This document shows positions 8,501-19,070 of a stretch of DNA of 59,094 nt, one piece after another; position 1 is the stretch's first letter, and every line of letters starts with the position of its first letter. The notes beneath the pieces are model-generated. The model was given only the letters and a program-made list of their open reading frames with translations. It did no database searches and was not told the DNA's origin. A program made the position numbers and the translations under genes. The DNA lies in contig NZ_QAXS01000016.1 of the NCBI RefSeq assembly GCF_003053565.1, forward strand, positions 1 through 59,094, read 5' to 3'. Source of the stretch: Halanaerobium saccharolyticum (lineage in GTDB: Bacteria; Bacillota; Halanaerobiia; Halanaerobiales; Halanaerobiaceae).

Positions 8501-8549
8501 CAAAGATAAATGTTTAGTAGTGGAACAGTCTTTATTGGGGGTGTTTAAT

Positions 8550-9683
8550 TTGAGTGAAGCAGATTTTAAATTTTATGGTCTGGGATCTTTTTATTGTGAA
8601 TATAAAGACAAGAAGATTGATGGTAGTGACTGGGTTTCAAAGAGGGCTCTTTACATTTTAATGTACTTACTTCAGGAAAGACAGCGTCGAATTAGTGTAG
8701 AAGAGATAGTTGATATATTCTGGCCTGAGTCAGATCTTGAGGACGGAAAAAATAAATTATACAATACTATTTATTTGCTCAGAACTTCTTTAAAAAAAGG
8801 GGGGCTTCCCAAAGATATTGTAGAATCTTTAAATGGTGCCTATAATATCAATCATAAATATAAGATATGGACGGACTGGGATTATTTTGAGCGAAAAATA
8901 AATAATTTAATGCTGGGCAAAGAATATCCTGTCCAGGAACTGCAGTCATTATTTGAAATGTATCGTGGAGATTATTTCAGTACCCTTAAGTATGAAGGCT
9001 GGACTGAATTAAATAGAGAAAAAATGAGAGAATATTTTTTAATTTTGATTGAAAAATTGACAGAGAAACTATATAGTAATGAAAGTTATCGGGATACAGT
9101 AAATTACCTGCATAAAGGTATTGAATATGATCCCTATCGGGAAAATTTCTATTTAATTTATATTAAAGCTTTAGTAAAACTGGGGAGAATTGCTGAAGCA
9201 ATAAACAGTTATAAAAAATGCGAAAGAATTTTAAAAGAAGAATTAAATGTTCCGCCAGGTCAGGAACTAAAAAGCGAATACCAGAGAATCAAAATGAGTC
9301 GGGAGATCACTGAAAAAGTTCAACAAAATTTTAATGCCAAACCCGTAATTGAAAGAGGGGCCATGTTCTGTGACCTCGATGTCTTCCAAAAAATTTATGA
9401 GCTGGAGCTTCGCCATGTTAAGCGTTTGAATAAGGAGTTTGTACTGCTGACAATAGATTTTTCAGAAATAGGATCAGAAATTAACTTCGAAGAACTGATC
9501 CATAAAATTGCCAGTACTTTAAGAACAGAGGATGTAATCTGTTACTGCAGCCAAAAAGTATATATTATTTTAAAGGAAATGGATCTTGTCAATAGTGGAC
9601 TGGTGATGCAGAGGTTTAATAATCTCTATAAAGAGTTGAATCTGACCAAAAAGCCTCCACTGGATATTAAAGAAATCAATTAA
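8550..9683 (+). CDS. BTAD/SARP-type transcriptional regulator, candidate controller of the fibre locus
   Basis: Cytoplasmic DNA-binding protein. Residues about 1-95 form a winged-helix domain of the OmpR/SARP type (ISVEEIVDIFWPES, NKLYNTIYLLR). Residues about 105-255 form the bacterial transcriptional activation domain of TPR-like helices, ending in the characteristic LNVPPGQELKSEYQRI. The last about 100 residues (FVLLTIDFSE, RTEDVICYCSQKVYIIL) resemble a GGDEF fold lacking the GGDEF signature. TTG 8550 is preferred because GGGGGTG at 8537-8543 is well placed; an upstream GTG at 8520 has no ribosome site. It directly precedes the curlin genes and ends with a terminator. Control of that locus is inferred from position. 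Confidence 0.8.
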   Translation: MSEADFKFYGLGSFYCEYKDKKIDGSDWVSKRALYILMYLLQERQRRISVEEIVDIFWPESDLEDGKNKLYNTIYLLRTSLKKGGLPKDIVESLNGAYNINHKYKIWTDWDYFERKINNLMLGKEYPVQELQSLFEMYRGDYFSTLKYEGWTELNREKMREYFLILIEKLTEKLYSNESYRDTVNYLHKGIEYDPYRENFYLIYIKALVKLGRIAEAINSYKKCERILKEELNVPPGQELKSEYQRIKMSREITEKVQQNFNAKPVIERGAMFCDLDVFQKIYELELRHVKRLNKEFVLLTIDFSEIGSEINFEELIHKIASTLRTEDVICYCSQKVYIILKEMDLVNSGLVMQRFNNLYKELNLTKKPPLDIKEIN

Positions 9684-9708: not shown

Positions 9709-9734
9709 AAACCACCTGAAAGGGTGGTTTTTTT
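9709..9734 (+). terminator. Terminator of the BTAD regulator gene
   Basis: AACCACC-TGAAAG-GGTGGTT hairpin followed by seven T. It separates the regulator transcript from the curlin genes. Confidence 0.9.
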
Positions 9735-9824
9735 ATGTTTTCGAGGTTTTTTCGAGTATTTTTCCATATTTTTGTTAAATCACTCTGTTATTATTAGAGT
9801 AGAGAAGAGGAGGTGGTGCTGCAA

Positions 9825-10310
9825 ATGTTATTGAGAAAAATAGTTTTAATAATAATATTACTTTTTTTAAGTTTTATTTTTTTGTCATTACCTTTAAGCG
9901 CTCAGGAATTTAATGTTTTTTCGTTAAATAATGACTATCAACTTGAAGATTTAAATACTGGAACTGAGCTGGGACAGATAGATCTGCAGAATTTTAGTTA
10001 TGGTTATGCTTTTGACTATGATTATTACAATTTAGCTAAAAGTGCAGTAATTATCCAGATTGGAAATTATAATTTTGCTCAGATAAAGCAGGGAAGTGAT
10101 TATATTACTATCAGTGCCTCAACCGCTTCTATCTACCAGTATGGAAATAATAATTATGCAGCAGCTGTCCAATTAAATAAAAATAATAATCTTAAATTAG
10201 CTCAGTACGGTAATAATAATTTTATTCAGGTCGAACAGTACCGAAAAAATAGTAATTTATTTATAAGTCAGTTTGGAAATAATGAAAAATTGAAGTTGTA
10301 TAAGTATTAA
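9825..10310 (+). CDS. Curlin-repeat protein, CsgB-like (putative minor subunit/nucleator)
   Basis: Exported amyloid-type subunit. A signal peptide (MLLRKIVLII..., cleavage near LSA-QEF) is followed by a linker and four curlin-type repeats with core Q-x-G-N-x-N: QIGNYN (Q78), QYGNNN (Q105), QYGNNN (Q127) and QFGNNE (Q149), spaced 27, 22 and 22 residues, matching the 22-23-residue strand-loop-strand unit of CsgA/CsgB. The protein is rich in Asn, Gln and Tyr and has no Cys. ATG 9825 follows GAGGAGG; GTG codons at 9813 and 9816 overlap that site. The nucleator role is inferred from being shorter, basic-ended and first in the locus; it could equally be a second major subunit. Confidence 0.82.
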   Translation: MLLRKIVLIIILLFLSFIFLSLPLSAQEFNVFSLNNDYQLEDLNTGTELGQIDLQNFSYGYAFDYDYYNLAKSAVIIQIGNYNFAQIKQGSDYITISASTASIYQYGNNNYAAAVQLNKNNNLKLAQYGNNNFIQVEQYRKNSNLFISQFGNNEKLKLYKY

Positions 10311-10443: not shown

Positions 10444-10971
10444 ATGAAGAAAATTTTATTTTTAGCTTTTGTAATGATAATGGCTCTTTCAATGTCAGCA
10501 GCAGCTTTTGGAGGAATGGGTATTGGCGGAGATGTTGCAGTAATTGATCAGTTAGGTTCTTTTAATGATGCTTCAATTACTCAGGATGGTTATTCCTGGG
10601 GTGGCTGTGGCTGGGATTGCCCATTATGTACAGATAATATTGCTGTAATCCTACAGGATGGCGTTGGTAACAAAAACTATGTAACCCAAAAGGGTTCTGA
10701 CAACCTGACCCATGCTTTATCCTTTGGATTTGCTAACACAGTAATTCAGGAACAAAATGGACATGACTTAACAGCATTCGCAGTTCAGCACGGTGTATTT
10801 AACCATGCAACCCAAATGCAGTCCGGTAAAATGAATGTAAGTATGGTTAGACAAATTGGTGTAGCTAACAAAGCTTTGACAATGCAGAGTGGTGGAAACT
10901 GCTACTGTGGCGATACAGCTTTAATTACCCAAATGGGCTTTGCTAACAATGCTGAAATTTATCAGTACTAA
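10444..10971 (+). CDS. Curlin-repeat protein, CsgA-like major amyloid subunit with cysteines
   Basis: Exported fibre subunit of 175 aa. The signal peptide ends near SAAAF. About six curlin repeats follow: DQLGSFND, LQDGVGNKN, a variant SFGFANT, VQHGVFNH, RQIGVANK and TQMGFANN. The C-terminus QMGFANNAEIYQY closely resembles the last repeat of E. coli CsgA. Unusually it carries five cysteines, C55, C59 and C62 in a CxxxCxxC cluster and C153/C155 in CYC, sitting in loops between repeats. A strong AAAGGAGG precedes the ATG and a terminator follows, consistent with a highly expressed gene. Subunit identity is well supported by the repeats; amyloid formation is inference. Confidence 0.87.
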   Translation: MKKILFLAFVMIMALSMSAAAFGGMGIGGDVAVIDQLGSFNDASITQDGYSWGGCGWDCPLCTDNIAVILQDGVGNKNYVTQKGSDNLTHALSFGFANTVIQEQNGHDLTAFAVQHGVFNHATQMQSGKMNVSMVRQIGVANKALTMQSGGNCYCGDTALITQMGFANNAEIYQY

Positions 10972-11139: not shown

Positions 11140-11706
11140 ATGACAAACAAAAAATCTTTGATCTCTTCAATGACTATTTTAATGTTGATCTTATTAATAT
11201 CAGTTTCTGCTGCAGCTCAGGAGATTGATAATCCAGAAGCACAGGAAATCGATAGAGAAATGCAGGATAGAATTGAATTGATTCAGGCTTCACAAAGTTT
11301 AACAGCTCAACAAACTAATAAGTCTGCTGCAGGAGTAAGTCTATATCTTACAACCTTTCATTCCGGAGAAAAAGAATTAAACCTTGGTGGTAAATTTGAA
11401 AGTGACTTTTTTCAAAATGATAGATATCAGGGTATAAATCTTGCCTATGTAATTGAAGGAATATATCTAGAAGATGAAGATATTAACCTTGCTGGATTTT
11501 TGTCAATAAAAGCAACATTAAATGACAAATTATTTTCACCATATTTTGGAGTGGGAGCAGAATTTATGGGTAAGGCCGATTATCAGGGCTTTGTTGGTTT
11601 AAACTTAAATGATAATTTTTTTGTGGAAACAAAATTTATAAATGACAAGGATGAACTTGATAATGGAGATTTTTATTCTTCAGTCGGGTTTAAATTAAAC
11701 TTTTAA
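11140..11706 (+). CDS. Small predicted outer-membrane beta-barrel protein of the curli locus
   Basis: Exported protein of 188 aa: signal peptide to about AAAQ, a polar helix-forming segment rich in Glu/Gln (about 30-62), then alternating short strands with aromatic girdles ending in SSVGFKLNF. A terminal Phe after alternating hydrophobics is the usual outer-membrane barrel insertion signal. Eight strands would fit. It occupies the place where csgE would be expected in Proteobacteria, but I see no CsgE similarity. It starts after an AAGGGGTGAG site and lies 20 bases before csgF, probably cotranscribed. Role unknown; a barrel dedicated to fibre assembly or anchoring is inference. Confidence 0.6.
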   Translation: MTNKKSLISSMTILMLILLISVSAAAQEIDNPEAQEIDREMQDRIELIQASQSLTAQQTNKSAAGVSLYLTTFHSGEKELNLGGKFESDFFQNDRYQGINLAYVIEGIYLEDEDINLAGFLSIKATLNDKLFSPYFGVGAEFMGKADYQGFVGLNLNDNFFVETKFINDKDELDNGDFYSSVGFKLNF

Positions 11707-11726: not shown

Positions 11727-12155
11727 ATGAATAAAAAAATTTCACTGACCATTTTATTCTTTATCATTCTGATAATATTTTCAAATTTAGCTCTGGCAGC
11801 AAGTGTAACCAGCTGGAAATTTAATATTTTTAATGATCCCGATGCCAGGCAGGTAGCACAAAATATTGCCAGTGCTCAGAATGACATGACCCTGGCGAAT
11901 GATCCAATTGCTCAATTCATATCAGGTATTAATGGCAGAATTATGAATATGATTCAGCAGGATATTGTTAATAAGATGCTGGAAGATAATATTGGTGATG
12001 GTTTAAATTATGAGGTAGGGGATGTAGAGATCGATGTAACAGAAGATCCTCTTACAGGAATAGTTACAATTGTATTGACCAATATTATTACCGGAGAGAT
12101 AACAGTAATTGAGTATGACACAACAGAATGGCCTTCAAGTGAAGACTTTGAATAA
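11727..12155 (+). CDS. csgF: CsgF-like curli assembly factor
   Basis: Exported 142-aa protein resembling CsgF, the accessory factor that lines the CsgG pore and couples secretion to nucleation. After the signal peptide (cleavage near LAA-SVTSW) comes a short N-terminal stretch comparable to the pore-plugging segment of E. coli CsgF, then IASAQND (compare LNSAQAQNS) and FISGINGRIMNMI (compare FTQAIQSQIL). The second half DVEIDVTEDPLTGIVTIVL with the GEITVIEYD end matches the CsgF C-terminal strands. It is followed within 28 bases by csgG. The call rests on remembered alignment plus gene order, so it is probable rather than certain. Confidence 0.75.
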   Translation: MNKKISLTILFFIILIIFSNLALAASVTSWKFNIFNDPDARQVAQNIASAQNDMTLANDPIAQFISGINGRIMNMIQQDIVNKMLEDNIGDGLNYEVGDVEIDVTEDPLTGIVTIVLTNIITGEITVIEYDTTEWPSSEDFE

Positions 12156-12183: not shown

Positions 12184-12975
12184 ATGGAAGAAATGATTGC
12201 TCTACTTTTAGTTGTTTCTTTATTTGCCGGGGGCTCGACAGGTTTAATGCCAGAAAAAAATAGAGCAGAAGAACTGGCAGTTGACCCAACTCAGGTTATC
12301 GAAGAAGTTAGAATATCAGCTGATCAAATTATAACTTCTCAAGAAAATGTGACTACGGCGACTCAACTGCTGGCAGCTTTACCAGAGCGCGAAGATAAAC
12401 ATCAGGTAGCTATTTATGATATTAAAGATAAGACCGGTCAATACAGTGAGATTGGGTCGATGGTTGTTTCTCAGGGAGCTACTGAAATGCTAATCACTGC
12501 TTTAATCAGATCAAGGCAGTTTAAAGTCCTTGACCGAGTAAATTTGTCTAATTTCATGACAGAACAGTCTCTGGTAGAGCAGGATAGAACAACTGGAAAT
12601 GATGGTCCAGCAACTGGAGAATTAACAGGTGCTCATTATGTTATAGATGGCGCAATTACTGAGTACCAGATTGATAAAAAAACAGGAGGTCTGGGACTGG
12701 TTATTGCAGGCAAAGGTGGGCAGCAGGAATATGCTGTAGCCAGCTGTGCAGTTGATCTTAGAGTTACAGATACTACTAGTGGAGAAGTTGTCTGGGCAAA
12801 AAGTTTGAAAAAAGAGATAGTTGGAGAAAGAATCAGCTTTCAGGTATTTTCCTTCATGGGAAATAATATAGTGGAATTTGAATCTGGACGCGGCAAACAG
12901 GAAGTTATAAATTTAGTTGTCAGAACATTGCTGGAAGAAGCTGTTTACAAGCTTTCTACAAGTGATCTTTTATAA
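12184..12975 (+). CDS. csgG: CsgG-like curli secretion pore
   Basis: Outer-membrane secretion channel subunit of the CsgG family (263 aa). Conserved stretches include VAIYDIKDKTGQYS (compare VSVYNIQDETGQF), QGATEMLITALIRSRQFKVLDR, HYVIDGAITEY, GGLGLVIAG and AVDLRVTDTTSGEVVWAKS, in the same order as E. coli CsgG. The N-terminus is odd: MEEMIALLLVVSLFAGGSTG has no basic N-region, and where E. coli has the lipobox LLSGC there is FAGGS, so no cysteine can be lipidated. A strong AGGGGGGAGAAG supports the ATG. It is the last gene of the curli part. Confidence 0.87.
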   Translation: MEEMIALLLVVSLFAGGSTGLMPEKNRAEELAVDPTQVIEEVRISADQIITSQENVTTATQLLAALPEREDKHQVAIYDIKDKTGQYSEIGSMVVSQGATEMLITALIRSRQFKVLDRVNLSNFMTEQSLVEQDRTTGNDGPATGELTGAHYVIDGAITEYQIDKKTGGLGLVIAGKGGQQEYAVASCAVDLRVTDTTSGEVVWAKSLKKEIVGERISFQVFSFMGNNIVEFESGRGKQEVINLVVRTLLEEAVYKLSTSDLL

Positions 12976-13146: not shown

Positions 13147-13198
13147 CAGAGCATTAATATTTGCTCTGTTTAACCCTGGCTTAGAAACCAGGGTTTTA
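13147..13198 (+). terminator. Tandem hairpin module B, copy 1 (terminator after csgG)
   Basis: CAGAGCA...TGCTCTG, then TTTA, then AACCCTGG...CCAGGGTT followed by TTTT. The same two-hairpin layout recurs after the usher gene at 19016-19065. Confidence 0.65.
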
Positions 13199-13326: not shown

Positions 13327-14130
13327 ATGAAATTAAAAATTATTATTATATTAACCATAATTGTTTTTCTGTCCCAATTTCAGGCTTCAGCAGCTGGAGT
13401 TTATCTCGGCAGTTTTACCCCCAAACAAAGTGAAAGCTTTAATTTTTCGATTCCAGTTCAAAATCTGGAAGGAGAAATCATCAGCATCTACACAACTGAT
13501 GATTATTTCAGATCCGATAATCAAAAGATTGGGTCTTCAAATTTAAAGCTGATCAGCAGAGAGAATTCTCTTCCTCTCTCAAGTAGAGATCTTAATATAG
13601 AAAAAGATAGATTGCTTTACAACCAAAATCTCAATTTAGAATTAAATTTAAAAGCAGAATATGAACCAGGTTTATACAAAAACAATCTTTATTTGCGGGA
13701 TGATATTAAAATTATAGAAATAGAGATAATTTTTGAGATTAGACCCTGGATGGAAATCTTAAACGGAACAGCTCAAAATGCAAAAATAGAAAATGTTGAA
13801 AATAGAACAATGGGCCTTTTCAGCTCCGGGCAGCAGAAAATTTTAATTAGATCGAATACTGACTGGAAGCTTAAGGTAATGATTGCTGAGGAAAATAAAG
13901 ATAATCTTTCAATCCGAGTTGCTGCAGATCCTGAGAGCAGATCTTTTGTAGATTACAAGAGTGAATTTGTTAACTTAAATGCAGTGGAAACAGTTATTGC
14001 TAATGGCTCAAACACAGCCAAATTAAGTTCGGGTCAGGTAGAAATTTTTTATCAGCTGAGAATAGAAGATTTTAGAAAAGTAATTGCTGGAGAAAAAGAC
14101 TATCAGATAAGTTTTTCCCTTGAGCAATAA
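13327..14130 (+). CDS. Exported pilin-like or adhesin-like protein of the chaperone-usher locus
   Basis: 267-aa exported protein, signal peptide cleaved near ASA-AGVYL. The mature part is predicted almost all beta strand with an Ig-like look, and the C-terminus (KDYQISFSLEQ after GEK) resembles the last strand of fimbrial subunits of the form G-x-Y-x-x-x-I-x-F. No cysteines. It is first in a set of pilin, chaperone and usher genes, so a tip subunit, minor pilin or second chaperone-like protein are all possible. No specific family is recognised. AAAGGAGG precedes the ATG. Confidence 0.6.
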   Translation: MKLKIIIILTIIVFLSQFQASAAGVYLGSFTPKQSESFNFSIPVQNLEGEIISIYTTDDYFRSDNQKIGSSNLKLISRENSLPLSSRDLNIEKDRLLYNQNLNLELNLKAEYEPGLYKNNLYLRDDIKIIEIEIIFEIRPWMEILNGTAQNAKIENVENRTMGLFSSGQQKILIRSNTDWKLKVMIAEENKDNLSIRVAADPESRSFVDYKSEFVNLNAVETVIANGSNTAKLSSGQVEIFYQLRIEDFRKVIAGEKDYQISFSLEQ

Positions 14131-14217
14131 ACCTGGTTACGTTATCAGCTCAGGCTGATACTTAATATAAAGTTTCAGTGTGGAAAAGGGTTTTAAAAAA
14201 CTAAGGAGGAATTTATT

Positions 14218-15039
14218 ATGAAGAAAATGTTGGTATTAGCTTTAGCGTTGGTATTTATGCTCTCAGGTGCTGTAATGGCGCAGTACAGTGGAACTTTTGA
14301 TGATCATTTTGATGTTGATTTAAGTTCTGAGTTTACAGAGGGAGACTATATTGGTTATGAAGATTTAGACGGCAGTGGTCTGGTATATTTCAACGAAGTA
14401 GATTCTGATAATCCTGGCATATATACTAACTTAGAACAATTTAATCGCTCAGGTTATTATGATGTTAACGGTACAAATGATGACAACAGACAAAAAGTAG
14501 AAATTACTCTTCCTGTAGAAGCCTATATTCCTTGTTTCTTAGAAATGAGATTAACAGGTAACCAGGGTACAACTTCTGCAATCAGTTATGGTCCTGGTGC
14601 ACAGGGTTCAACAAATGCCAGTGGCTATCTAATGGTCTTTGATAATGAATTAGGCGGCTATTTAGATGATGAATGGCAGTCTCTGGGTTATGGAAGCAAT
14701 GTAGCTATTAATCCTGGTGACGATGTTTTTATCGGTTCCTGTGACATCTTTGCAGTAGAAGTTATCTCCAATGATAAATATGCTTATGAGGTTGAGTCTG
14801 ATGTGTTAAATGGAGTTGCTGGAGCAAATGGTGAAACATTACCAATGTATATGAGAACAGATCTTGGTGGTGGCTGGTTAGCAAATGACTTTGTATTTAA
14901 TGCTCCAAAAACTTTCCATCGCGAAAGAAATGCAGGAGTTAAATTAGAAGCACTTCATAACTTTAAAGTTCCTTTCGGCATGAATACTGTTCATGGTGAA
15001 TATAACGGTCAGGTTATCTTTAGAGCTATGACAATTTAA
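14218..15039 (+). CDS. Putative major pilin of the chaperone-usher locus
   Basis: 273-aa exported protein with a signal peptide cleaved at VMA-QYS. The mature part is rich in Gly, Asp, Tyr and Asn and predicted beta. Two cysteines (in YIPCFLEM and IGSCDIF) could form one disulphide as in classical pilins. The end, GEYNGQVIFRAMTI, has the alternating pattern of a fimbrial C-terminal strand. A strong AAGGAGG site and a stem-loop right after the gene (15087-15110) fit a highly expressed subunit whose mRNA is protected from 3' decay, as known for papA. No database family is recognised. Confidence 0.65.
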   Translation: MKKMLVLALALVFMLSGAVMAQYSGTFDDHFDVDLSSEFTEGDYIGYEDLDGSGLVYFNEVDSDNPGIYTNLEQFNRSGYYDVNGTNDDNRQKVEITLPVEAYIPCFLEMRLTGNQGTTSAISYGPGAQGSTNASGYLMVFDNELGGYLDDEWQSLGYGSNVAINPGDDVFIGSCDIFAVEVISNDKYAYEVESDVLNGVAGANGETLPMYMRTDLGGGWLANDFVFNAPKTFHRERNAGVKLEALHNFKVPFGMNTVHGEYNGQVIFRAMTI

Positions 15040-15071
15040 CTTGTGCTGATACTTTAATAAGTTAATACAAT

Positions 15072-15110
15072 TTTTCCACTACAAGGCAGGGGCTGAAAAT
15101 TCAGCCCCTG
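15072..15110 (+). repeat. Hairpin repeat A, copy 2 (after the putative major pilin gene)
   Basis: TTTTCCACTACAAGG plus CAGGGGCTGAA/TTCAGCCCCTG. Relative to copy 1 an A-T pair in the stem is replaced by G-C, a compensatory change that supports a folded RNA. It has no T-run, so mRNA processing or stabilisation between pilin and chaperone is more likely than termination. Confidence 0.7.
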
Positions 15111-15134
15111 AATAAGTAGAAAGGAGTGATTTCT

Positions 15135-15944
15135 ATGTTTAAAAAAAGTTTAATTTATAAAAGATTATTAACAATAAGTTTAATTGTTATTTTAATTATA
15201 TTGATTTCAAATCATGTATTTGCTACTGTTAGGGTTGAACCATCAAGAATAATTTTAAATGCTATAGAAAGAGAACGCAGTACAGGAATTATTGAAGTTG
15301 TAAATAATGGTGAAGAAAAAATAGAGCTAACTACAGTTTTACATGATTGGAGTTTAGACGAGAAAAATTCTGTTGTAGTTTTCGAAGCTGGTGAAACAGA
15401 ATATACTCTTGATGGATTGATTAAGTTTAATCCTAGAGAGTTTACTCTGGCTCCAGGACAGAAACAGATTGTTAGATTTACAGTCTCCAGTCCTGAAGGT
15501 GAAAGCCCAAGAGAAAGAAGGGGTATAGTCTTTGTAGAGCACGAAACAGAACTAATTGATGAGGCTACTGGTTCGAGAGTAAAAACTCAGATAGGTACTA
15601 CAATTTATTATATTCCGGTGGGTGTTAAATATAATTTTAAGTTTACGGGTTTAAGAGTATTTAACAGTCCAGAACCAATGCCGCAGGGTATATCTTTGAG
15701 GATTAATAATGATGGTGATGGTCATATGAGATATTACACTTCTTATAAAATAGTTAATTCTAATAACGAATTAGTTATGGAAGATAAGTTAAGTCAGTTA
15801 TTAATTCTTCCTAAAAATGAGAGATATTTTTCTTTCTATCTTAAAGATAGACTGGAACCAGGAGATTATAATTTTATGTTAGAATTTAGTTTTTATAATA
15901 CAGATCGGGTAGCTGAATATCAGATTCCAATTAAAATAGAGTAG
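15135..15944 (+). CDS. Fimbrial (PapD-like) periplasmic chaperone
   Basis: 269-aa exported protein with two Ig-like domains. The first begins RVEPSRIILNAIERERSTGIIEVVNNGEE, the usual start of PapD-type domains including the conserved Arg. The strand FTLAPGQKQIVRFTV and ERRGIVFVEHE match the F1-G1 region. YYIPVGVKYNF leads into domain 2, which ends with LEPGDYNFMLEFSFYN. This family binds pilin subunits in the periplasm and delivers them to the usher. ATG 15135 is preferred because AAAGGAG (15120-15126) is correctly spaced. It is followed after 13 bases by the usher. Confidence 0.82.
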   Translation: MFKKSLIYKRLLTISLIVILIILISNHVFATVRVEPSRIILNAIERERSTGIIEVVNNGEEKIELTTVLHDWSLDEKNSVVVFEAGETEYTLDGLIKFNPREFTLAPGQKQIVRFTVSSPEGESPRERRGIVFVEHETELIDEATGSRVKTQIGTTIYYIPVGVKYNFKFTGLRVFNSPEPMPQGISLRINNDGDGHMRYYTSYKIVNSNNELVMEDKLSQLLILPKNERYFSFYLKDRLEPGDYNFMLEFSFYNTDRVAEYQIPIKIE

Positions 15945-15957
15945 GTTGGTGAAAAAT

Positions 15958-18900
15958 ATGAAGAACTTAATAATAATTACTCTATTTGTTTTTTTGATTC
16001 TAAGTCCTGTTATTATTGAGGCCCAGGAACTAGCTGAAGACAATTTAGGTATTGAAACTAGTATTGTATTATTAACTTTATTCGATGTAAACAGAGAGCA
16101 GGCCTACGATCAGGATGATTTTTTTGAAATATTTTATTTTAGTGAGGAAGACTATATACTCTTACCGGCTAATTTGATTGCACCATACCTTGAAGTGGAG
16201 CTTAATTTTAACAGAGATTTATCTATGCTGACTATAGAAAAAGGACAGCGTGAAGTAAGAGTTGATCTAACAGCAAAGGCATATATAGAACACCTGGAAT
16301 GGGATGATAGGCCTTCTGTGATTGCTGGCGGTGAGTTTTATCTGGCAAAAGAAGTTTTTGAATATCTAACAGATTATCAAATTAGCTGGAATAATTCTCT
16401 GCAGGAAGTTGTAGTGGAAGGAGAATTTTTTAAAGATATTGAAATAGAAGACGGTCTGGAAGAAGAGGAAGAAGAAAAAGAGAAATTAATCTATCAAGAA
16501 GAAAAAGAGATTTTGGGAGATAAGAAAAAATCTTTTCAGCTGAGTTCTGTCCATTATAGAATTCAATTAAATTTAGAAGAAAGAATTTTTGGTGGTCAAG
16601 ATAAAGAGATTAATGGAGATTTAAATTTTTATGGTAGAACTGGAAACTGGGCTTATTATTTAAATAATGATCTAAAATACAGTATTGACAGCAGTGAAGT
16701 TGATTATGAACTTGATAGAATAAAATTTAAGTATCAGGAAAATAATATGCTAATTATAGCTGGAGATCATGATTTCCGGCTGGAAGAAACTATGGGAAAT
16801 AATGAGATGCAGGGTTTATACTTTTCTCTGCCTGATAGGTTGAGTTATAAATTGATCCCCTATACAAGTGTAACTGTTGAAGTCAATAAAGGTGATCAGG
16901 TTTCTCTTTATTTGAATAATAGTTTATTTAAAAAAAGAGATATTAAAACTGATGGCAAGTACACTTTTGAAAATATTGAATTAAAAGCCAGGTATTTAAA
17001 TAAAATAGAGGTCGTAAAGTTAACCTCTGAGGGTCAAGAAGAAAAGAGAGTACAATATATCACTGGCTCAAGTGATGTTTTAAACTCAAAGGTAAAAGAA
17101 TATGAACTTTTTGCGGGGCGTTATCGTGATGACGATTATTCTGGAGATGGCTGGGAAGGATATTTTGGAGCTTTAAGATCTAACTATGCTTTTAATAAAA
17201 ATCTTTCAGCTCATATAGAAACAGCTATTTATAATGAATCATTAAATCCGGATAGTGAGTTAACTAAAGAAGTTGTTTCTTCAATTAGTGGCTTTTCATT
17301 TAGAATAAATTCTCGAACAGTAATCAATCTCGACTGGTTAATAGCTGGTAAAAAAGATAGCTTAAAAAGCGGAGCTGAAGCCAGTATTTTATATGGTTTA
17401 TTAAATGGTTATATTCAGGGGGTTTATCTATATATTCCTCCAGAAACCGCCAACTTTATGGAAAAAGATGAAGGAGAAAATAAGTCGCTTTCCTTTCGTC
17501 TTGATTTAGCTAATAATATTAGTATTAATCCAACAGTTGGTCAGAGGAAAACACTTGAAGATGAGATTGATGAAAGTGATTACTATACTTTTAAAGTTAT
17601 CTATAATCCTGGTTGGAGAAACTACAATGCTCTATCCCTTTATTATGAGGACAACAGATCTGAATATTCTTTTACAGATCAAAATGATCAAGTATATATC
17701 TTTTTAGGAGATAAGATAAGGAAGGGTATTGGCCTGGAAAATAATATATATGGAAGAAGCTTTAGAGTTTCAAGTGATCTTGCCTATTATGATAATGACC
17801 TAAACATCAGTGATTTCTACCAGGAAAATTATCAGGATTATGAAGCAGAATTAGGAGTGTATAAGCGCTTTGGTGATTATCTCTTACTATCAGCAAATTA
17901 TGATGGTGAAATGCAGCGAGATGATCAGGGGACAAGATATTATGACCGTGAATATGATGGAGAGATTAGGCTATCATTTGGCAGAAGAGCTTCTTTATCC
18001 TTAGGAACTAAAAGAAATGAAGAAGAATCAGAAGCTAGAATTGATGAAGAAAGTAATCTCCGCTTAAATTATTATTTTAATCGAGAATTTAGTCTAACTG
18101 CTGAACTAAAAGATTATCATTCAGAGTTTTTAAATGATTATCAATCAGTAAGTTTGTCGGGTAATTATTATCATCCAAACAATCCTGGCTATATTAGATT
18201 ATTAGGTGAATATATTGTTCCAGATGAAGGAGAGCCAGGCACCTCCTTTAGTGCAGCCTATGATATTATTAGAGATGATGAAAGTGAGATAAAAATTGAA
18301 ATTGGCAGAGAATACGCTGATTTTGTTAATAATGAGTATGAACAATATGCCACTTTTTCTTACTCACATGCTCTTTCATTTATCGGAGAAGAGACCAGAA
18401 AATCTAGATTCACTGACATTGAACCTCGCCCGATTGTAGCAGGCTATGCTTATCTTGACGAAAATTATAATGGAGTTATGGATCCAGGAGAGAGAAAATT
18501 AGAAGATATACCAATGAGGCTGGGTAATATGATGTCTGTTAGTGATGAGGATGGTTTCTTTATCTTTAAACCATATTTTAATGACATATATTTTCTCAAC
18601 TTCGACTACCGCAACCTGATAGCTGATTATACACCGGTTACCGAAGAGATATTGGTAAGAGTTAAGGATAACCAGAATATAATGCAGAATTTTGGGGTTA
18701 CAATTAATGGTACAATTAGCGGCAATGTATTTATTGATAAAAATGCCAATGGTATTAAAGATGAAAATGATGATTATCTGATGTGGGCAGGAATGGAAGT
18801 TGCCGGTCTTAATAAAAAAGATTATACAGATCAGATTGGAGAATATTATTTTCAGAATGTGCCATTAGGATTTCACGAGTTAACTCTCTTAAAAGAATCT

Positions 18901-19008
18901 CTACCAAAAGGAACCAGACCCCTGAACGGTTACACTCAGGAAATTTATATAACAGAGGATCAACTTGATCACCATAATATTGATATTCCAATAGTCTATG
19001 GAGATTAA
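15958..19008 (+). CDS. Usher-like outer-membrane assembly protein with C-terminal SdrD-like repeats
   Basis: 1016-aa exported protein (signal peptide to IIEA-QEL). Residues about 25-160 hold two copper-amine-oxidase-N-like modules (LPANLIAPYLEVELNF, FYLAKEVFEYLTDY). An acidic linker (about 162-180) is followed by a long set of amphipathic strands (about 195-815) typical of a large barrel. It includes an internal domain, YTSVTVEVNKGDQVSLYLNN with TDGKYTFENI, that resembles the usher plug/middle region. At the C-terminus are two SdrD-B/carboxypeptidase-regulatory-like domains with Ca-type loops DENYNGVMDPGE and DKNANGIKDEND. Position after a chaperone gene supports an alternative usher. ATG 15958 is preferred over TTG 15946. 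Confidence 0.75.
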   Translation: MKNLIIITLFVFLILSPVIIEAQELAEDNLGIETSIVLLTLFDVNREQAYDQDDFFEIFYFSEEDYILLPANLIAPYLEVELNFNRDLSMLTIEKGQREVRVDLTAKAYIEHLEWDDRPSVIAGGEFYLAKEVFEYLTDYQISWNNSLQEVVVEGEFFKDIEIEDGLEEEEEEKEKLIYQEEKEILGDKKKSFQLSSVHYRIQLNLEERIFGGQDKEINGDLNFYGRTGNWAYYLNNDLKYSIDSSEVDYELDRIKFKYQENNMLIIAGDHDFRLEETMGNNEMQGLYFSLPDRLSYKLIPYTSVTVEVNKGDQVSLYLNNSLFKKRDIKTDGKYTFENIELKARYLNKIEVVKLTSEGQEEKRVQYITGSSDVLNSKVKEYELFAGRYRDDDYSGDGWEGYFGALRSNYAFNKNLSAHIETAIYNESLNPDSELTKEVVSSISGFSFRINSRTVINLDWLIAGKKDSLKSGAEASILYGLLNGYIQGVYLYIPPETANFMEKDEGENKSLSFRLDLANNISINPTVGQRKTLEDEIDESDYYTFKVIYNPGWRNYNALSLYYEDNRSEYSFTDQNDQVYIFLGDKIRKGIGLENNIYGRSFRVSSDLAYYDNDLNISDFYQENYQDYEAELGVYKRFGDYLLLSANYDGEMQRDDQGTRYYDREYDGEIRLSFGRRASLSLGTKRNEEESEARIDEESNLRLNYYFNREFSLTAELKDYHSEFLNDYQSVSLSGNYYHPNNPGYIRLLGEYIVPDEGEPGTSFSAAYDIIRDDESEIKIEIGREYADFVNNEYEQYATFSYSHALSFIGEETRKSRFTDIEPRPIVAGYAYLDENYNGVMDPGERKLEDIPMRLGNMMSVSDEDGFFIFKPYFNDIYFLNFDYRNLIADYTPVTEEILVRVKDNQNIMQNFGVTINGTISGNVFIDKNANGIKDENDDYLMWAGMEVAGLNKKDYTDQIGEYYFQNVPLGFHELTLLKESLPKGTRPLNGYTQEIYITEDQLDHHNIDIPIVYGD

Positions 19009-19015
19009 GTTTCCC

Positions 19016-19070
19016 CAGGACAGAAATGTCCTGTTTAGCCCCGGTTTAAATGCCGGGGCTTGTTCTTGTC
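19016..19070 (+). terminator. Tandem hairpin module B, copy 2 (after the usher gene)
   Basis: CAGGACA/TGTCCTG (19016-19033), then TTTA, then AGCCCCGG/CCGGGGCT (19037-19060) and a T-rich tail. It has the same layout as 13147-13198 but different stem bases. Confidence 0.75.

Follow-up and report, generated by a model that had tools for sequence, protein, structure and literature searches.

The window, that is, the whole stretch of 59,094 nucleotides (nt) analyzed here, is contig 16 of a genome of Halanaerobium, a halophilic diderm relative of Clostridium. Directly after its genes for curli, an amyloid fibre, on the same plus strand, lies a cassette of four genes (13327-19008) coding for two exported proteins (p267 and p273), a chaperone and an usher-like barrel protein, which probably form a divergent chaperone-usher (CU) system building a surface fibre with p273 as the candidate subunit. 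All four open reading frames (ORFs) are intact and lie where an earlier note on this DNA had placed them, and reading of the sequence indicated a Sec-type signal peptide at the N-terminus of each product. In gene order, 87, 86 and 1 nt separate the four genes from one another, and the usher-like ORF comprises 1020 amino acids (aa) from a TTG start or 1016 aa, the length given in the earlier note, from an internal ATG at 15958. The four ORFs are no chance noise, since their order recurs in related genomes down to ~35-50% identity and in other Bacillota families; the closest named full-length relative is H. kushneri, in which the usher-like protein shows 82-83% identity. The features of the cassette and its borders are the following.

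13172-13195, plus strand: terminator-like hairpin separating the curli genes from the cassette.
13327-14130, plus strand: p267 (267 aa), exported, conserved first cassette gene, candidate minor or tip subunit.
14218-15039, plus strand: p273 (273 aa), candidate main fibre subunit with Cys106, Cys175 and a C-terminal beta-strand motif, co-occurring with the usher.
15126-15944, plus strand: predicted periplasmic chaperone (272 aa) with two immunoglobulin-like domains (two-Ig), from its model, fold matches and archaic chaperone profile.
15946-19008, plus strand: predicted usher-like outer-membrane protein (1020 aa), from its model and Foldseek.
16057-16422, plus strand: usher N-terminal domain, residues 38-159, Cu_amine_oxidN1-like.
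16861-17067, plus strand: plug-like domain, residues 306-374, after six barrel strands and at the site of the direct archaic-usher profile match.
18424-19005, plus strand: two C-terminal beta-domains, residues 827-1020, SdrD_B-like.
19037-19060, plus strand: terminator-like hairpin 3' of the usher gene.

Single-protein searches of Pfam, NCBIfam and PDB sequences returned no usher and no pilin, and the Pfam Usher model (PF00577) had no match in the whole genome, the 1020-aa protein included, whereas the same model found the archaic usher of Psychrobacter at 7e-33 as a positive control. Among relatives of the large protein, Pfam identified Cu_amine_oxidN1 at the N-terminus and SdrD_B/CarboxypepD_reg at the C-terminus. 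The structure was modeled by AlphaFold2 with 24 homologues, giving a mean predicted local distance difference test (pLDDT) of 83 and a predicted template modeling score (pTM) of 0.62. In this model the N-domain is followed by a low-confidence linker, six strands (198-295) and the compact beta-domain 306-374; ~24 more strand segments (384-813) come next, and a pair of beta-domains forms the C-terminus. Ushers such as FimD and PapC are characterized by a plug domain inserted at this point, behind strand 6. When the model was compared with the PDB by Foldseek, ranks 1-18 were all FimD or PapC chains (E 2e-26 to 2e-10), and the best non-usher match for the barrel was at 7e-7. With VIA-align 2, the Z of 14.5 was tied with porins and TonB receptors and ushers did not come first, but FimD was aligned over 532 residues (197-971) as compared to at most 376 for the other barrels listed; because of these ties in Z, the Foldseek E-values and the aligned length were relied on. 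Together, the predicted structure indicates that the large protein has an usher-like fold with a plug.

The model of the chaperone showed a two-Ig (PapD-like) fold with a pLDDT of 92, ending in a beta-strand (262-271) with no C-terminal membrane helix. Its structural matches were WxLIP of E. faecium (Z 15.8), CfaA (14.2), YadV (13.3), CsuC (13.2) and FimC (13.1), and its sequence profile matched the fimbrial chaperone EcpB at E 0.001 and WxLIP at 0.0035; among relatives, PapD_N was found weakly in two out of eight chaperones (best 0.0027). The earlier note had proposed a PapD-like chaperone and a large barrel with an usher-like middle part, naming the plugged barrel and the two-Ig fold as the predictions on which its reading should stand or fall, and both folds were recovered. 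In CsuC, the residues holding the carboxylate of the subunit are Arg89 and Tyr196, supported by Arg174 (PMC4654587). By motif, R117 of the cassette chaperone aligns with the archaic Arg89 region and R202 with the Arg174 region (CsuC itself being outside the alignment), and since both residues are invariant in 18/18 cassette chaperones, they may serve as the carboxylate anchor. In addition, strand 151-163 shows a donor-strand-like alternation of Val/Ile at 152, 156 and 160. The rank of WxLIP raises another explanation, namely display of the WxL/WxLIP type, in which the 'chaperone' would be a WxLIP-like protein that keeps p273 at the cell wall, the barrel being an unrelated outer-membrane protein. 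It draws on the top structural match, on the profile match given above and on a weak Pfam match to WxLIP_PGBD (E 0.023), although the latter, at 15.2 bits, is below the cut-off of 27.3. However, WxLIP carries a C-terminal membrane helix (PMC10599100) that the chaperone model lacks, and the barrel, which occurs together with the cassette, has a match specific to ushers, so that we regard such a display as quite improbable.

Presence of these genes was counted in an evenly drawn sample of 398 genomes of the phylum, with phylogeny ignored in the Fisher tests. The gene order p267-p273-chaperone-usher recurs in Halanaerobium and in the Bacillota families f17, f30 and f102 (the f102 contig starts inside p273), and some genomes carry two copies of the cassette. 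Strong matches to p273 were found in 14/398 genomes, and strong matches to the usher in exactly these 14 (Fisher 4e-26); weak usher-profile matches in three others (G083, G187 and G358) covered the N-domain only and were not counted as ushers. Omp85, which agrees with the diderm host assumed in the earlier note, was present in 15/15 usher-positive genomes (G033 with a weak match included) as compared to 102/398 overall (Fisher 6e-10); therefore, the cassette is seen only alongside an outer-membrane marker. Signs of gene decay and of mobile elements were also observed. In L024/L025 (G018) the cassette is decaying, with p267 split into two ORFs, p273 shortened and the usher interrupted near residue 892 by an apparent IS256-type transposase, and a group II intron with reverse transcriptase lies just 3' of the usher gene in a metagenome-assembled genome (MAG 5-U2, L034:7600-9350). 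Six further genomes (G019, G025, G024, G013, G011 and G030, at L017 and L026-L030) contain orphan usher-like proteins of ~1011-1032 aa with 24-27% identity, which keep the plug-like segment and have no adjacent chaperone or subunit gene (L017 being a short contig). Five of the six lack any chaperone match, and CsgF is present in 6/6 of them vs 5/32 (Fisher 1.7e-4, phylogeny again ignored).

The two small exported proteins had been called pilin-like in the earlier note; their export is consistent with the signal peptides, but no recognizable pilin family was found, as neither p273 nor p267 had a Pfam match to DUF4402, SCPU or a pilin. The p273 protein is conserved, with Cys106 in 14/16 and Cys175 in 14/16 relatives, and it ends in a strand of the G-x-Y-x-G-x-V-x-F type that resembles the ends of DUF4402 and SCPU subunits. 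Its position, its co-occurrence with the usher and this C-terminal motif make p273 the putative fibre subunit. The profile of p267 showed a weak resemblance to the chaperone family (P 88) and a very weak one to the C-terminal part of p273 (P 16), and p267 may be an accessory, minor or tip protein. It is conceivable, though unlikely, that p273 and p267 are exported by CU-derived machinery and displayed at the surface as monomers or in another non-fibrous form, with no polymer built. This would fit with the lack of a known pilin family for both proteins, with the length of p273 (273 aa), which exceeds the mostly 140-200 aa of the DUF4402 and SCPU subunits compared, and with the orphan usher-like proteins in genomes having no chaperone match, which may mean that the barrel serves purposes besides pili. 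On the other hand, a dedicated two-Ig chaperone with a conserved donor-strand pattern and anchor residues is what polymerizing subunits need, and the C-terminal strand motif of p273 is like that of pilin ends.

Relatives outside Bacillota were sought by tblastn against plasmids. The usher gave nothing, and the chaperone identified annotated loci in Sphingopyxis, Pseudoalteromonas and Deinococcus as well as one canonical archaic locus in Psychrobacter. The non-canonical proteobacterial loci consist of a DUF4402 gene followed by a 'molecular chaperone' or hypothetical gene and a 'carboxypeptidase regulatory-like' protein of ~900-960 aa; the same arrangement occurs in Polaromonas and Novosphingobium, and the large proteins of these loci had no Pfam Usher match. 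Profile comparisons by hhalign linked the window usher to the DUF4402-linked ushers (8e-27 over 794 columns) and the window chaperone to their chaperones (5e-21), and the DUF4402-linked set in turn to the canonical archaic systems (ushers 2e-11, chaperones 6e-12). Compared directly with archaic systems, the window chaperone scored 8e-18 and the window usher 5e-7 over only 136 columns, the plug included, with a porin control at 0.27. In the Deinococcus locus, matches were confined to the chaperone and the C-terminal domains. A locus from another member of Halanaerobiia (G331, L081:6579-12856) was also noted, in which small DUF4402-like subunits (best of three 1e-5) accompany a chaperone and a 1011-aa protein that matches the proteobacterial DUF4402-linked usher profile at 2e-52. 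The usher and the chaperone matched classical ushers (1e-5, P 81) and the FimC/YadV profile (1e-5), respectively; given that the in-cassette control, chaperone vs p267, was as high at 3e-6, a classical assignment by profile was rejected. Up to an E of 1, neither the usher family nor any window protein matched a Pfam model for alternate (CS1, CFA/I) ushers or subunits. Thus the 'alternative' CU type of the earlier note is not supported in its strict sense, the nearest profiles being the DUF4402-linked set and then the archaic systems.

These links invite the view that the cassette came from Proteobacteria by recent transfer and is an ordinary CU operon of the archaic or alternate type, as might be argued from the archaic chaperone profile and from the two out of three archaic anchor positions that are conserved. 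However, the Pfam Usher model that readily detects the Psychrobacter protein is silent here, the subunits are not SCPU by profile, the cassette is present in several Bacillota families with usher identity down to ~20-25%, and its GC content of 33.1% is near the 34.5% of the window. Recent transfer from Proteobacteria was rejected given this depth within Bacillota and the similar GC content, and we consider it highly implausible.

Several observations weigh against a CU system. No cassette protein reaches the Pfam gathering score for Usher, PapD_N or pilin, and the searches for PapD_N, usher and SCPU suggested in the earlier note thus gave no match above cut-off. By hhalign, p273 showed nothing significant against DUF4402 subunits (P 0.8) or SCPU subunits (P 7), and no subunit family was therefore assigned. 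The chaperone residue aligned to Tyr196 of CsuC (position 226) is Val, Leu or Ile and never Tyr. The barrel has ~29-30 strand-length segments by DSSP vs 24 in FimD, a count of segments and not of barrel closure; the N-domain is Cu_amine_oxidN1-like and not PapC_N-like; and the template modeling scores to FimD are modest (≤0.40 scaled to the query length and ≤0.52 scaled to the target), which makes the match topological and no close superposition. Nevertheless, that the cassette works like a CU system is well supported by computation. In the favored scheme, all four products would be exported by Sec, after which the chaperone would capture p273 by donating its own G1 strand, with the C-terminal carboxylate of p273 possibly held near R117 and R202, as residue conservation and the CsuC mechanism suggest. 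The chaperone would then hand p273 over to the usher-like barrel. Judging from the fold match, the N-domain and the C-terminal domains of this barrel could provide the docking sites, with the plug gating the pore. Finally, the subunits would be linked and threaded out as a fibre, with p273 as the presumed main and p267 as the presumed minor or tip subunit.

The genes upstream of the cassette on the plus strand are as follows.

8520-9683, plus strand: SARP/BTAD-family transcriptional regulator (PF03704, 6e-21), candidate regulator of the locus.
9709-9730, plus strand: terminator-like hairpin 3' of the regulator gene.
9813-10310, plus strand: curlin-repeat protein, CsgA-like (PF07012, 1e-8), neighbouring module.
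10444-10971, plus strand: curlin-repeat protein, CsgB-like (PF07012, 8e-14), neighbouring module.
11140-11706, plus strand: exported barrel-like 188-aa protein within the curli operon, no family above cut-off.
11727-12155, plus strand: CsgF (PF10614, 8e-7, above cut-off).
12184-12975, plus strand: CsgG (PF03783, 3e-40).

The neighbouring module has curlin repeats, CsgF and CsgG by Pfam, which confirms the curli genes of the earlier note; the best NCBIfam match of the 10444-10971 product is CsgB (6e-20, below the cut-off of that model). No CsgE match was found among the curli cluster proteins by Pfam, and the lone Firmicute in a published curli survey is likewise without csgC, csgD and csgE (PMC3521004). 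Curli operons in Halanaerobium and in relatives conserve the 188-aa protein (29-98% identity in five loci), which may do a job done elsewhere by CsgE. Between csgG and the cassette is a gap of 351 nt with the strong hairpin at 13172-13195. Because of this gap and hairpin, and of the second hairpin after the usher gene, the sequence suggests that the cassette is transcribed apart from curli and is probably its own operon; a single curli-CU operon was rejected on account of the gap and hairpin between the modules.

Among relatives, curli and cassette are each found without the other. In G015 the cassette comes right after the SARP gene, with no curli between and no CsgF found genome-wide; in G011 the SARP gene is followed by curli only. 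The SARP-family regulator adjoins curli in G011 and G017 and the cassette in G015. H. kushneri has three modules side by side: curli, a WxLIP-like/secretin one and the cassette. This arrangement supports the composite surface-fibre island proposed in the earlier note, with curli and cassette as exchangeable modules of one locus, albeit probably as separate transcription units, and suggests a dedicated surface-fibre site in Halanaerobium. The intervening H. kushneri module (L133:615-7371, G012:C42) has six genes, coding for two to three small exported proteins, one of them weakly p273-like, a 507-aa WxLIP-like protein, a secretin (PF00263, 5e-36) and a barrel-like protein. ORFs of 505-515 aa with a double chaperone domain, like the 507-aa protein, occur across Halanaerobiales.

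In the sources consulted, archaic CU systems have been described in Proteobacteria, Cyanobacteria and Deinococcus-Thermus, and reports of the classical and alternate types are limited to beta- and gamma-Proteobacteria (PMC4654587). Our literature search found no prior description of a CU system for Halanaerobium or diderm Firmicutes, nor of DUF4402 systems, which is weak evidence of absence given that subscription papers and preprints were outside its scope. If widespread in Omp85-positive Bacillota, such a CU system would carry the pathway into the diderm Firmicutes and reveal a clade missed by current family models. In addition, since the chaperone resembles CsuC/CfaA as well as WxLIP, a connection between pilus assembly in Gram-negatives and WxL display in Gram-positives becomes testable. 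More tentatively, the cassette might be a branch of an undescribed fourth CU clade that is invisible to family models and spans diderm Bacillota and Proteobacteria, perhaps Deinococcus too, with its chaperone linking pilus chaperones to WxLIP, so that donor-strand assembly in diderms and WxL display in monoderms would share an ancestor.

In comparison with known systems, the cassette shares with curli (type VIII) its place as immediate neighbour on the same strand and its nature as a surface-fibre system, whereas the proteins are unrelated and the mechanism is different. With the WxL/WxLIP clusters of Gram-positives it shares the top structural match of its chaperone, and WxLIP has a strand predicted to insert into the beta-sandwich of its partner (PMC10599100), but WxLIP binds WxL domains at the peptidoglycan and those clusters have no usher. 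The classical FimC/FimD and PapD/PapC systems likewise pair a two-Ig chaperone with a barrel that has its plug behind strand 6 and two domains at the C-terminus; in contrast, the cassette barrel is predicted to be larger, has another N-domain and shows ~10% identity in structural alignment. The alternate CU systems resemble the cassette in a chaperone fold, that of CfaA, close to its own. Archaic (sigma) CU systems such as Csu agree in the chaperone profile, in the positions equivalent to Arg89 and Arg174 and in a subunit gene placed ahead of chaperone and usher; unlike them, the cassette has no Pfam Usher, no SCPU, no Tyr equivalent to Tyr196 and, 3' of the usher, no gene for a tip adhesin. 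That the cassette belongs to the classical, archaic or alternate CU families is not established. The DUF4402 loci of Sphingopyxis, Novosphingobium, Polaromonas and Pseudoalteromonas differ in that they are found in Proteobacteria, that their DUF4402 subunit has no profile link to p273 and that no p267 homologue was identified in them, but they have the same order of subunit, chaperone and large barrel, match in usher and chaperone profiles and are also missed by Pfam Usher. Judged by sequence profiles, the nearest relatives of the cassette outside Bacillota are these proteobacterial DUF4402-linked loci, followed by the archaic systems.

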